A DNA stretch of 64,000 bases from Metaphire vulgaris (lineage: Eukaryota; Annelida; Clitellata; Crassiclitellata; Megascolecidae): contig CM030852.1 in assembly GCA_018105865.1 (NCBI GenBank), forward strand, positions 6,770,034-6,834,033, in the 5' to 3' direction. The position numbers were made by a program, and so were the translations under genes. Position 1 is the stretch's first letter. Every line of letters begins with the position of its first letter. The notes under the pieces were generated by a model, which was not told the origin of the DNA, did not search any database, and worked only from the letters and a program-made list of their open reading frames with translations. This document shows positions 8,340 to 62,521 of this stretch, one piece after another.

Positions 8340-8689
8340 GACTTTATTTTCTCAATCTTCTTCTTCGTCTTCTCCTCTTCTTCTTTTTCTCCTCCTCCTT
8401 CTTCTTCTCCTTTTTCTCCTTCTTCTTCTTCTTCTTCTTCTCCTCCTCCTTCTTCTCCTTCTTCTTCTTCTTCTTCTTCTTCTTCTTCTTCTTCTTCTTC
8501 TTCTTCTTCTTCTTCTTCTTCTTCTTCTTCTTCTTCTTCTTCTTCTTCTTCTTCTTCTTCTTCTTCTTCTTCTTCTTCTTCTTCTTCTTCTTCTTCTTCT
8601 TCTTCTTCTTCTTCTTCTTCTTCTTCTTCTTCTTCTTCTTCTTCTTCTTCTTCTTCTTCTTCTTCTTCTTCTTCTTCTTCTTCTTTTCT
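8340..8689. repeat. Long (CTT)n microsatellite
   Basis: A pyrimidine-only region becomes pure CTT repeat from about 8459 to 8684, roughly 75 units. The homopolymeric open frames over it (poly-S, poly-F, poly-E, poly-K) are artefacts of the repeat. Confidence 0.97.

Positions 8690-10545: not shown

Positions 10546-10621
<76 letters not shown>
10546..10621. repeat. (CT)n microsatellite
   Basis: A pure CT dinucleotide run of about 76 bp. Confidence 0.97.
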
Positions 10622-10623
<2 letters not shown>

Positions 10624-11691: not shown

Positions 11692-25266
<13,575 letters not shown>

Positions 25267-30527: not shown

Positions 30528-46750
<16,223 letters not shown>

Positions 46751-48294: not shown

Positions 48295-51200
48295 CTGAAA
48301 CACAAAACAGAAAGCTTAAACTCAGTAATTTTCAGCAAGTAATTCAGTAATTTTATAATGATGTGTAATAAACAAGTTTTATATTGAACATCAATTGGAA
48401 TTGAATAATTATTATAAGATATCTGCCTCGTAAGGAGGCCTCTTGAATATGCCATTCAAAATTATGCCAAATGAAGAATTTAATCAGTATTCACTGATCC
48501 ATCAGTTTAAAATACAGCTTATACTTTCTGCCATCTTAAATTAACTTGCTAAATTAATTAACAGAAATGAATATTCAATTGCTAAAGTGAGTCAAATGCT
48601 CATAAAAAATTAGAATAGGCCTTTCCAGACCTGTGTTTACTCTCAATTTTGTGCTAGTACCATACTCGTTTTTCTATTGCCTGAATGGTGAACTGGAAGC
48701 TAAAGTGCTTAGCCTAAACTTTATGGGTGATGATCAGTTTGGATTCAGAAGAGGTAAAGGTACACAAGATGCAGCATCAAGTACTAAGTAACTACATAAA
48801 TGAAAGAAGCATTGAAGATGTAAGAGACTGTCAGGCACATAACATCACTCCTTGAGGCCCTTGAACATTTCTTGATAATGTACAGTAAAACCTCTTTAGC
48901 CCGCCACTATTGGCCAAGGGTGAAAGTTTGGCGAGGGGCGAGTTTGGCGGCTTAACGAATACAATGCTCACTACTGAAACTACAGTAGGCTTGCCCCCCC
49001 ACGGGGGCGGGGATGAGAATTTTGGGTGCCCCGCGGATACCAGTAGGGACGGGTCAGCTAATGAACAAATGACAGGTTGCTATATATTCATGTATAGACA
49101 GCAGGTCGGCTACGAGAAACTGTCAACTTGTAAAGGAAAAGGCTCTAAGCTAGTAGGCTGCGTCGGTGTTTCGTATTGTTGATAATGCAGACCAGAGTAC
49201 CTGCTGCTGATGTAATACAGCAGCATACAGGCCTACGCCCTACAGATGAAAAGTTTTGTAAATCAGATCCATTGTCTGCTGCCACGGGGACTGCTGGGTT
49301 GGAGACAAAAGCCACGGGAGCGGGATTGGCCATCGCAGGGTGGGGCGAGAGTGGCGGGAGGGAGGTCAACTGTCGGGGTCAGATTCTTGCTCCCCTCCCC
49401 TCCGTGCAGACCTCTACCACAATCCCTTCACCAGATATTAGCTGACAGGTTAATAGCTGATTATCAACACACCGATGTATTCATCGGGGGGGGGGAGGGG
49501 AAGGGTCATTAATTGTGTAAACAGTCGGTCAGGAGCTTGGCCTACAAACGGTCAAACCGATAATTAAAGTTGCTATGGCGAGCAAAAGAGGTCATAGTAC
49601 ACAGGCATGGAATTTTGAAAGTTGTGGCGACGGCGAGCGGCGAGTTTGGCGACTAAACGAGTTATTTTACATGAGTGGAAATCCGTTCTTGACCCATCAA
49701 TGGCGAGAGGGGAGTTTGGCGACCTAAAGAGGGGCGAGCTAAAGAGGTTTTACTGTACATGCTGATCTTCAATGAGGGAACCCCCACTCTCCGAACCCCT
49801 GGCATTATGGTATAGCTTAAGAGCTTTGGATAACAAATTTAAAATAAAGCAACATGCACACTGTGCAGGCGCCACCATTGAGTTGTCAAAAAAGTGACAC
49901 TAAGAAGTAATTCCCAAATGGATGGGTTCAAGACATTGCAAAGGGAGGGTCCAGTCACTGCAAAAGCTCGACGCTGAGTAAGAGCAGTGCGTGATCTGGG
50001 GACATAAACATTCTTCTGATCAGTGGAGTGGAGCAGGCGATGAGCAGTGAAAGAGGGTGATTTGAAAGGCTCAGTAATGTAAGACGGTGCCTGACTCGAA
50101 GTGCTGCAGAAACAATAATTACTTGTTTGAATTTAATGCAGTCAGAAATTGGAAGCCAGTGGAGGGTGCTAAGCATAAAGTCTGAGATGCTAGAGTAGCG
50201 TGGAGCTTTAGCCACAAGATGAGCCGCAGCATTTAGGGCAGATTGCAGAGTGGAGAGCAGGCTTTTGGGCAGGCCAAGATAAAGAGAATTGCAATAGTCT
50301 AACCTACTAGCCACAAAAGCATGAACCAGAGATTTGGCTGCAGATGGTACACGGACTATTGACCACAGGACGATTGACCATAGGACGATTGACCACTGGA
50401 CGATTGCCCACAGCGGACTTTTGACCACTGGACGATTGACCACAGCCGTGAGTATCAGGCTTAGCACGCTGTCTGCTGCATGCATGCATACAAAAAAAGG
50501 AAACCAAATGCTATTGTCTATATATATTTATATATAATTATATATGTACATGTATATATATACAATAGCATTTGTATATATATATATATATATATATGTA
50601 TACATATGTATACATATGTATATATATGTATATATATGTATATATATATGTATATATATATGTATGTATATATATTGTATATGTATGTATATATATGTAT
50701 ATATATGTATATATATGTATATATATGTATACATATAATATATATATCGACTCACTATTGTCCTTTTCATCATTCCCAGCATTTGGTTCCTTTTTTTGTC
50801 ACACATACAAAAAAAAGGAAACCAAATGCTATTGTCTATATATATTTATATATAATTATATATGTACATGTATATATATATACAATAGCATTTGTATATA
50901 TATATGTATATATATGTATACATATGTATATATATATATATATATGTATATATATGTATGTATGTATCTATGTATGTATGTATGTATATATATATATGTA
51001 TATATATATAATATATATATATATCGACTCACTATTGTCCTTTTCATCATTCCCAGCATTTGGTTCCTTTTTTTGTATGCGTGCATGCATGCATGCAGCA
51101 GACAGCGTGCTAAGCCTGATACTCACGGCTGTGGTCAATCGTCCAGTGGTCAAAAGTCCGCTGTGGTCAATCGTCCAGTGGTCAAAAGTCCGCTGTGGTC

Positions 51201-54200
51201 AATCGTCCAGTGGTCAATCGTCCTATGGTCAATCGTCCTGTGGTCAATAGTCCTAGAACCGCTGCAGATAAAGAAAGCGAAGAACGAATAATCCTAATTT
51301 TCCTAAGTTGGTAAAAGCAGGATCGAGAGTCTAGCAAAGTGCTCTTTGAAGGTCAAGTTACCGTCAAAGTAAATACCAAGGTTTTTGATACAATTTGAGA
51401 AAGATTGATTAGGAAAGAGCGTGTTCAGTAAGTCATAATCAATTTTTGAGGGCAGATGTTTAGTACCAAGCCAGATAAGTTGAGTTTTGTCAGGGTTCAG
51501 TCGAAGTCTATTGGAAAACATCCAATCCAGAAGAGTTGGAATTACATTGTCTACTGATTGAGTGAGCTCAGTATGAGAAGAGTGAAGGCAGTGTCAGTAA
51601 ATTTGAATGTCATCAGCATAGAGGTGCACACTGCACAGTGAAGCCAAATGAGCTAATTAAAGAGCAAAGGTCAGCAGTATAGAGTATGTACAGCAGAGGA
51701 CAAAGCACTGAGCCTTGGCCACCAAAATCCCCAGATCTGAATCCTGTGGACTACAGTGTCTGGGGAATACTTCCGGAAAGAGTGTACAGAACATTCATTG
51801 CTGACCTTGGAGAACTGAAACAACTATTGCTGGTCGAATGGGTAAACCTGGATCGGGGTCATTGTGGCGGCAATACATCAGTGGCAACGTCGATTTTTGG
51901 CTTATGCAAAAGTCAATGGTGGACACTTTAAACATAAATTCTGATACAAATGTCAGTTTGATGACATTATTTGATAGGTCAGTTGAAAACTCTTTCGTAA
52001 CGTTTTAAGTCAAATTCCACTGGCTCAAAGTAATTTGCTACTGATGGATTATGCAAGTTGGTTTATCAAAAACGAAGTTCAGATTGACTTAGATAATTGT
52101 ATTCTGTTTCAAAAACTACAAAAATGTTTTTAATGGGTTCAGCGTTAGTAAGGCTATGCTGATAAATGCATTGGCTTGGTTTTTTAGCAGACACTGTGTA
52201 TATATAAAGAAAACAAAGGTGATGTGTATCACAAAAGTAGAAATAAGGCAAATGAAGATCATAATGAAAGGAATGATTCTGGAACAGGTTAAAGAATTCA
52301 AGTATATGGGACACATGATAACAAATGATGCAGATGTCATCATAAAATCAAGAGAATACCTGTAATAGCGATGGGTAAGCAGGCATTCATTACAAAACTT
52401 CCAAGAACTGGATTAAACAAAGCTACAAAAAGAATAGTGAATGTACAAGTATAATAGTATTGAGCATGGTGCTATATGGAGTAGAGATATGGACAATAAG
52501 GGAAAATGGCATCAAAGTACTTAAAGCATTCAAAATGTAGATATGGAAAAGATTGGAAAAATCAATTGCACAGAAATCAAATTATTGGTCACACATCTTA
52601 AGAGGATGACAAAGATACTACAAGGGCTCTTCAAGGGGCGAAAGACTAAATGACAACCAAGAATCGTGTTGCTCAGCTGGATGACAGATGACTATAACAC
52701 CAATAGCGACAAGACACTCAAGGAAAGAGCTCACAACAGAGTTGAATGGCAAATCTACCCAAGGACCTGGACAATGCAGAGAACCTGAAGTATGATAACA
52801 GCCAATTTGGCCATTGGCTCCACAGCTGGATTCCAGGATGGCCACCGATCCAATTAATTACCAAGCTGTGCTCAATGTTGCTTAACTTCAGTGTTCTTAT
52901 TTAAATGGATTACCACCAGCTAGTAGTAAATAGGTAATATTATTAGTGATAGTCACATCATGCTGACTGAAACGATATTAAAAATTTAAAGAGGGGGAAC
53001 CTGGTTTTGCAATCTTCCATGGTTATGAACTATAGCACCTCCAAAATTTTCTGCTAGGAATAAATGTGCCCAGTAACTACATTTTCTGACATAAAACTGC
53101 ATCTATCTCAAATGTGCAAGAAAGTTCATAAAGTTGACAACAAACTGCAATCATATAATTTGTGATTTGGAGCTATCAGATGAAGCATATATGTAGCTTT
53201 ATCATCATCATGATCATCATCATCATCAACAACAACAACAACAACACTGCTGGTGATTCATAGGCACATTCTGACACCTTGTTGAAGCTGTCAGAGCGTG
53301 CCTATGCATCGCCAGCACAGTGTTGATGAAGCTAATATGCATATTATTTGGCCCCATATCATGACAAACAAATTAGAGCATGCTGGCAATCCACACAATT
53401 AAGAAACATGCTGTCAACAGAGGAATACATGTATAAAACCAACTCATTAGCACCATAATTTATATTCCATTGCTCTGCAGCAGATATGGCTAACTTCCAT
53501 AGATATATATTCACATAATATGAAATCAGTACTTTCAAAATAAGTCACACACATTAAAAAATTACCTTTATATTATCATAAGATATGCAAAATACAAATT
53601 CATGACTGCAAGTGCAGCTTTAATTTTTTATTAATATATCAATTTACTTGATTTTTATTAATATTAATATATCAATTTACCTGAATAATTATGGGTAGGT
53701 AGGCATGCATATACAAGTGATTTTTAAGGTGACTAGGAAATTTGTCAAAATCAAGAGATCTCAAAATGCAGACATCGGTTGTGTTGCATCTTTTTTTGAG
53801 CTGCAAGAATAGTTATTTCAGGATAATATTAGCAACATTATAATAACCAGGTAAGAACAAGCAGCAATCACATTCACAATTATCAATCAGGAACAAAAAC
53901 AAACTTATTTAGTGTCATTCTAATGCATTGGCAAAGCCAAGATTCAAGAACTGGGGGACGGTGGGGGGATTGTCAAGTCTGACACAGGTCTCATTTAGTC
54001 TAACTAGGTGGTTGCGGAGCATTATGACCAATCACCCCACCCCTGGTAAAATATTTTCATTGGTTTTGCACAAATTCCACTACTGATCCAAGCCAGATTA
54101 GGAGGCAGCCCCTGATAGCTATGCTAATGTTTGATGTGGGAAGCTATCAGATAATAAAGAGTGACCCTCAAAAATTATGTCCATGGTAAAGGACTAGGCC

Positions 54201-60591: not shown

Positions 60592-61082
60592 TTCTGACTC
60601 TCAGTATTCTCACAACCCCCAACATTTGTACAAGAATTGTGATAGGCCTACGTTCAATACAGAATTAGGAATTAGTCATAGATGCATCGTTCTGATTATT
60701 TAGACTGGTTTAGTAAATGCAATAGCGTTGTTAGATGGAGTGGTCTTTTATCCACTTGCTTTGTAATTCATTACTGTAATTCATTGCTGTAATTCATTGC
60801 TGTAATTCATTACTGTAATTCATTACTGTAATTCATTACTGTAATTCATTACTGTAATTCATTACTGTAATTCATTACTGTAATTCATTACTGTAATTCA
60901 TTACTGTAATTCATTACTGTAATTCATTACTGTAATTCATTACTGTAATTCATTACTGTAATTCATGCAGAGGTTCGACAATGGTTTTTCTGTCACCTGC
61001 CTTGTCTGCTGTGTGCTGTTCTGACTCTCAGTATTCTCACAACCCCCAACATTACTGTAATTCATTACTGTAATTCATTACA
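60592..61082. repeat. 13-bp minisatellite bracketed by 35-bp direct repeats
   Basis: TAATTCATTACTG is repeated about 15 times at 60763-60966, and twice more at 61054-61082. The 35-bp sequence TTCTGACTCTCAGTATTCTC... occurs identically at 60592-60626 and 61019-61053. Confidence 0.9.

Positions 61083-62437: not shown

Positions 62438-62438
<1 letters not shown>

Positions 62439-62521
<83 letters not shown>
62439..62521. repeat. (ATT)n microsatellite
   Basis: Pure ATT repeat of about 83 bp. Confidence 0.95.

Follow-up and report, generated by a model that had tools for sequence, protein, structure and literature searches.

A foldback Mutator-like element inserted in a LINE of Metaphire vulgaris belongs to a family with a transposase-coding member

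Introduction

What kind of sequence interrupts a LINE in the annelid Metaphire vulgaris, and what could have moved it there? The window analysed here, a stretch of 64,000 nucleotides from contig CM030852.1 (assembly GCA_018105865.1, positions 6,770,034 to 6,834,033), holds a 915-bp segment with long inverted arms and a (TA)n core, which an earlier note made from the letters alone had assigned to Mutator-like/foldback elements. This reading is supported by the present analysis, which indicates that the insert is genuine and of an already known type, a foldback MULE with a coding relative in the same genome.

Results

The 9-base sequence GCTGCAGAT is found at 50337-50345 and again at 51261-51269, the two copies framing the 915-bp insert (50346-51260), and no further base is gained by extending the repeat on either side. 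A minus-strand LINE reading, whose motif we take to be of CR1/L2 type, occupies one flank at 49955-50345 and the other at 51270-51720 (outer limit approximate), where a separate frame change occurs at some distance from the insert. The reading crosses the junction once the insert and one GCTGCAGAT are removed, and a stretch of 23 residues spans the join. A genome search with 240 nt of the LINE joined without the insert gave 799 first-look candidates, and the best 40 of these were scored; all 40 matched at 95-97%. Since the LINE reads through the join and 40/40 scored copies match without the insert, the insertion is exact. These results confirm what had been noticed from the sequence, namely a foldback structure in a LINE between perfect 9-bp duplications, with the LINE reading continuing on either side. 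Pfam analysis of seven proteins from frames of the window gave no domain at 0.001, and a rescan of four window proteins at a threshold of 1 gave one weak DUF1647. Another LINE frame of the window had 177 relatives by protein search.

Each end of the insert begins with a 7-base tip; further in come the outer arm, made of GGAC-NN-TTGACCA units, and ~67 bases of inner arm, and the centre is a (TA)n-rich core. On the left (plus strand), tip A (50346-50352, GGTACAC, for which the usual family form is GGTACGC) is followed by an outer domain of six units (50353-50445, TA/15-GA/15-GA/15-GA/17-TT/15-GA by variable bases and spacing) and by an inner domain running from CCGTGAGTATCAGG to CCAAATGCT (50446-50512). 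The right end lies on the minus strand, with tip B (51254-51260, GGTTCTA), an outer domain of eight units (51129-51253) and the inner domain in reverse complement (51054-51128, inner limit approximate). The units of both arms read GGAC-NN-TTG[A/C]CCA and stand 15 or 17 bp apart. The right outer arm exceeds the left by one 32-bp dimer and departs from it at one base, and the inner domains differ at eight bases plus one more (identity 0.88). The arms are thus similar without being identical, and the seven bases at the very ends are themselves unlike. The core is a direct duplication on the plus strand, in which module 1 (50487-50799) starts inside the left inner domain and is 83.5% identical to module 2 (50804-51076). 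A two-unit pattern matched 11 times in the window, with 10 of the matches inside the insert, and 0 times in 100 shuffles. By eye, the insert's frames of at least 110 aa are low-complexity or arm-derived and encode no transposase, which is compatible with MULE membership because non-autonomous members lack a transposase by definition.

Further copies were sought with the left arm as the query in the 728-Mb genome (246 contigs). The search gave 724 first-look candidates, the best 40 of which were scored and yielded 44 matches. Thirty-eight neighbourhoods besides the window were fetched, with longer stretches for 12 that initially had no arm pair, making 39 places including the window copy; as the query was an A arm, this sample is biased toward copies with a good A arm. 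Both tips were recognised in 25/39 places, and in seven others both arms were present with a tip missing or changed (L026, L032, L036, L042, L052, L054 and L053/L066), while seven had no second arm within the stretch read, one of these entering Ns. L017 and L040 are a single insertion within an inverted segmental duplication, their flanks being reverse complements. A 19-base pattern of the B tip with the first unit had 200 exact copies in the genome, and the reversed control pattern had none. The whole-genome check proposed in the earlier note thus returned many copies, both as scored arm matches and as exact ends.

With up to two mismatches allowed in tip typing, all 25 two-tipped copies pair one GGTACGC-type (A) tip with one GGTTCTA-type (B) tip, and none carries two alike; unlike 7-bp tips, one of each and outside the inverted repeat, are the arrangement of Tm1-type elements. 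An exact duplication stands directly at the tips in 18 of these copies (9/25 at 9 bp and 9/25 at 8 bp), within the 8-10 bp of MULEs, while the remaining seven have neither an 8- nor a 9-bp exact duplication there. Swapped-flank controls gave 0/600 at 8 bp and 0/600 at 9 bp. Because L017 and L040 count as one insertion, there are 24 independent two-tipped cases, 17 with an exact repeat. The expectation of 9-bp duplications across copies therefore holds for many of them, but 8 bp is equally frequent. A 9-base repeat was also seen at L032, where the left tip is missing, at L052, where a tip is changed, and at L054, where the right end is altered; at L026 (10 bases), L028 and L042 (8 each) repeats appear if one tip is extended by 6 to 10 bases, a freedom with which 1/600 control swaps passed. 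No target repeat was seen at L036. Since copies with missing, changed or extended tips still show repeats, the tips are a rule with exceptions.

Across copies the arms follow an order set by the two variable bases: TA/15, GA/15 units, one GA/17, and then TT/15-GA/17 dimers. The tandem unit proposed from the window was correct but incomplete, as TATTG and TTTTG variants occupy set places. Counted on the unit list from the first unit to the first 17-base step, with the step unit included, 20/25 A arms have three units, whereas B arms have four in 13/25 copies, three in 7/25 (window copy included) and neither number in five. By a loose pattern, A arms contain 4 to 16 units and B arms 3 to 11. Together with the long inverted arms and short tandem units, this variable number is characteristic of foldback elements, and the differences by whole units between copies support arms that lengthen and shorten one or more full units at a time. 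Internal repeat expansion, the mode of growth suggested in the earlier note, fits the arms; the duplicated (TA)n core is real in the window copy, but the core motif was found twice in this copy alone among 25. The oriented core motif is directed toward the B tip in 22/23 copies where it was found, and the reversed orientation in L028 is as expected from a crossover between inverted arms. Inner-domain identity had a median of 0.947 within elements (n=23) versus 0.933 between them (means 0.927 and 0.920), and homogenisation of arms inside elements was rejected.

Four copies are 2.6-6.5 kb long (L055, L056, L057 and L061). L055 and L056 have a 2.6-kb stretch in common at 95% identity, a frame of which has one uncharacterised relative, and L056 carries a reverse transcriptase piece (PF00078, 4.4e-25). 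No transposase was detected at 0.1 in six frames of L056:401-2901, L057:901-3202 and L061:751-2702, the first of which gave one weak CENP-B_N, nor was a transposase domain found in the single frames scanned from the remainder of L055 and L056. The scanned parts of the long copies thus give no support to an autonomous source among them.

The MULE domain PF10551 has at least 105 matches in the genome (150/153 candidates scored). By eye, among the 100 listed of the 200 B tips, one such match was noticed 2.6 kb inside a B tip on contig C4; a second match with an equal score stands at C133:40982-41263. Here, tip B at 18155936 faces a tip A arm ending at 18160530, with 4595 bases between the tips; 11 units were found at the tip B end and 12 at the tip A end, and the family inner domain is present on both sides. 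On the minus strand a FLYWCH frame (PF04500, 1.2e-8) comes first, followed by a frame change and the MULE frame (PF10551, 1.7e-8), so that FLYWCH precedes MULE as in Phantom elements but lies in another reading frame. GGTGATTTT abuts tip B and recurs 9 bases beyond tip A, with no repeat at tip A itself. C4:18155936-18160530 was read except for its middle (C4:18156331-18157899, 1569 bases) and is the one member in which a MULE domain was found between the family's ends. Judged from its domains, we name it a transposase-coding member; it is not called active because FLYWCH and MULE are in different reading frames. The earlier note had proposed to look for an autonomous partner with the same ends; the C4 member shares these ends and carries both domains. 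Another MULE, L075, has its own arms, made of other units.

Discussion

The insert can very probably be classed as a MULE-superfamily DNA transposon of foldback type, cut-and-paste and non-autonomous, which jumped into an old LINE copy and was moved by a FLYWCH-MULE relative. The Mutator-like/foldback assignment, originally drawn from the 9-bp duplication, is strengthened by the exact 8- and 9-bp duplications, which the swapped flanks did not reproduce, and by the MULE-coding member with the same ends. On the basis of the tips, the duplications, the unit grammar and the FLYWCH and MULE domains of the C4 member, we place the family among Phantom/Muta/Tm1-like Mutators. A structural guess thereby becomes a family and a likely enzyme within one genome.

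By MULE biochemistry and by the yeast assays with Muta1 (PMC5225508), a transposase of this kind would bind the arms, cut and paste. In this family, the enzyme, combining a FLYWCH finger with a MULE (DDE) domain, would be supplied by a relative with the same ends and would bind the repeated GGAC-NN-TTGACCA units as putative binding sites. One A tip would be paired with one B tip and cutting would occur at the tips, and insertion by a staggered cut would leave the 8- or 9-bp duplication. Slippage or unequal exchange would alter the arms by whole units (15 bp, or 32-bp dimers), and the core would be free cargo. Three parts of this picture are our inference: mobilisation of the family by a transposase of the C4 type, binding of this enzyme to the units, and a need to pair two unlike tips. 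For the last, simple descent of both tips from one founder would fit the data too.

Three other readings were weighed against this one. According to the available text of two papers (PMC3169594, PMC4079207), several superfamilies have evolved foldback ends. The insert might belong to another of these (Galileo, for example, is a P-superfamily element), in which case the C4 MULE gene would be an unrelated passenger. With at least 105 MULE matches in the genome an accidental position near an arm is possible, and a single transposase-bearing member was read. A hand estimate preceding the reading of C4 gave about 0.04 such accidents (100 listed tips x 105 matches x 3 kb / 728 Mb). The MULE gene in fact sits between facing B- and A-tip arms 4595 bp apart, with the family inner domain on both sides, and, as far as the published descriptions at hand extend, duplications of 8-9 bp agree with MULEs (PMC5225508, PMC3169594) and Phantom elements combine FLYWCH and MULE in this way (PMC3169594). 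We therefore regard the passenger reading as improbable.

The other two readings do without separate jumps. Spread of the copies and their duplications by segmental duplication has an example in L017/L040, but the remaining duplications, and the 14 bases shown per flank, vary between copies, which makes this explanation very improbable for the family. An inverted array might also have been built locally, by microsatellite or minisatellite growth inside the LINE and with no insertion at all, in a window that is rich in tandem repeats (69 rows) and around a core that is itself (TA)n. This is contradicted by the exact 9-bp duplication and by the 40/40 scored empty LINE sites, and the same ends at other genome sites already refute it; we give it next to no credence.

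Several described systems resemble the foldback MULE family reported here. TU elements of sea urchins are similar to our family in plan, with an outer arm built of 15-bp tandem units, then an inner domain and a variable middle; their duplications are 8 bp. The closest comparison is Tm1 of root-knot nematodes. In the portion of the Tm1 report available, Tm1 has composite arms with a tandem unit of 13-15 bp and unlike 7-bp tips outside the inverted repeat, followed by GGA; duplications of 8-10 bp, mostly 9; a FLYWCH+MULE partner of Phantom type; and both MITE-like and cargo-bearing members (PMC3169594). These traits have counterparts here, namely unlike 7-bp tips, GGA next to them, tandem-unit arms, a similar duplication size, a FLYWCH-MULE partner and cargo-bearing beside MITE-like members. 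The printed tips of Tm1 are CGGTTAA and CCTACCC (inward GGGTAGG), followed by GGA and then CGATTCAG... (PMC3169594), and by eye, with no statistic attached, these tips and the first unit resemble GGTTCTA / GGTACGC followed by GGAC(G/T)ATTG. Beyond GGACGATT, the unit, the inner domain and the core differ: only GGACGATT is common, by eye, with the printed GGA plus unit consensus, and a purine-rich motif D and members with a histone hairpin are described there for Tm1, in contrast to the (TA)n core in Metaphire vulgaris. As the sequences of the Tm1 unit and motif D were not found by eye, we liken the family to Tm1 in the way it works and do not classify it as such, and common descent of the two sets of ends is a lead only, because the comparison was made by eye without a statistic.

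The available account of Muta1 and Muta5 of Aedes aegypti gives 8- or 9-bp duplications, a variable repeat number and mixed internal cargo, with terminal motifs of 10 and 8 bases followed by 12-bp repeats with 3-4 bp spacers or by 15-bp repeats, and reports that Muta1 moves in yeast assays (PMC5225508). That Muta1 yields either 8 or 9 bp fits the even 8/9 split seen here; unlike tips are not mentioned for Muta in that portion of the text, and the likeness is one of description, not of aligned sequence. MULEs of the Phantom clade, as far as described in the accessible text, have FLYWCH in some members, a MULE transposase, 8-10 bp duplications and invertebrate hosts (PMC6446971); our family agrees in FLYWCH, transposase, duplication size and invertebrate host, the C4 transposase being likened by domain layout and not by a tree. 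In the excerpt on Tetris of Drosophila virilis, a foldback element with modular arms, 8-10 bp duplications and known copies without transposase, sea urchin foldbacks are also cited, and the arm units, unlike ours, are ~220 bp (PMC4079207).

We raise, as a speculation that we ourselves hold to be doubtful, that the ends form a code in which the transposase pairs unlike ends, so that both A and B would be needed, and in which GGTT.../GGTA... followed by GGAC-N-ATT would have been kept between Metaphire vulgaris and nematode Tm1 while arms and cores turned over. If so, selection would act on the tips, which lie beyond the repeated arms. The value of the find lies in its copy number, its unlike tips and its coding member, and the likeness by eye to nematode Tm1 is of interest. 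With hundreds of copies, unlike tips and countable units, the family offers a test bed for the growth of foldback arms, and it is equally suited to asking whether MULE transposases need two different ends.

Outside this genome, the two-unit pattern was found in one stretch of viral contigs and seven of genome contigs, each with 2-4 units at a single place; two of the eight were read, and all were taken as chance or coding repeats and not as relatives. Unit sequences gave chance 12-base matches only in the literature text searched, one in each of two papers, Repbase and most subscription journals being outside its scope. Within the genome, the window itself holds a degenerate copy of a sister family at 23712-23890, with units GGAC-NN-TTGCTCAC and a right tip reading GGGTCTA inward. 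This array has genome relatives (63 candidates, the best 40 scored), and GGATCTA stands ahead of the first unit at two of eight loci inspected (L068 and L069). Given these GGATCTA/GGGTCTA tips and GGAC-NN units, the design of tip plus unit seems to be common to at least two families in the genome.

Variant copies, a sister family and another MULE gene

Two long main-family copies elsewhere in the genome, L055 (5425-9662) and L056 (219-6702), were found to have a 2.6-kb stretch in common, which contains remnants of an uncharacterised gene with one relative found at 49% identity. Another main-family copy (L028, 1560-2197) carries the GGTACGC-type A tip twice (GGTACGCTTCGGTACGC), and its core orientation is inverted relative to its tips. 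The array at window 23712-23890, whose unit is GGAC-NN-TTGCTCAC, is a degenerate copy belonging to a sister family of foldback elements; one of its relatives, L068, is a 31-unit array with the tip GGATCTA. In L075, inverted arms (172-312 and 2222-2365) were present on both sides of another MULE transposase gene, built of their own tandem units that differ from those of the main family.

Other repeats in the window

The reverse-transcriptase-type frame at window 31280-32185 represents a LINE other than the host of the insert, and a protein search retrieved 177 relatives, several carrying PF00078. In the tandem-repeat listing, we identified microsatellites of (TCT) (8356-8689; 112 copies at 93%), (CT) (10547-10622; 38 copies at 100%) and (TAT) (62438-62521; 28 copies at 100%), and the window holds further long microsatellites. 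A partly palindromic 13-bp unit, TGTAATTCATTAC, forms a tandem array at 60762-60966 (15.8 copies at 98%).
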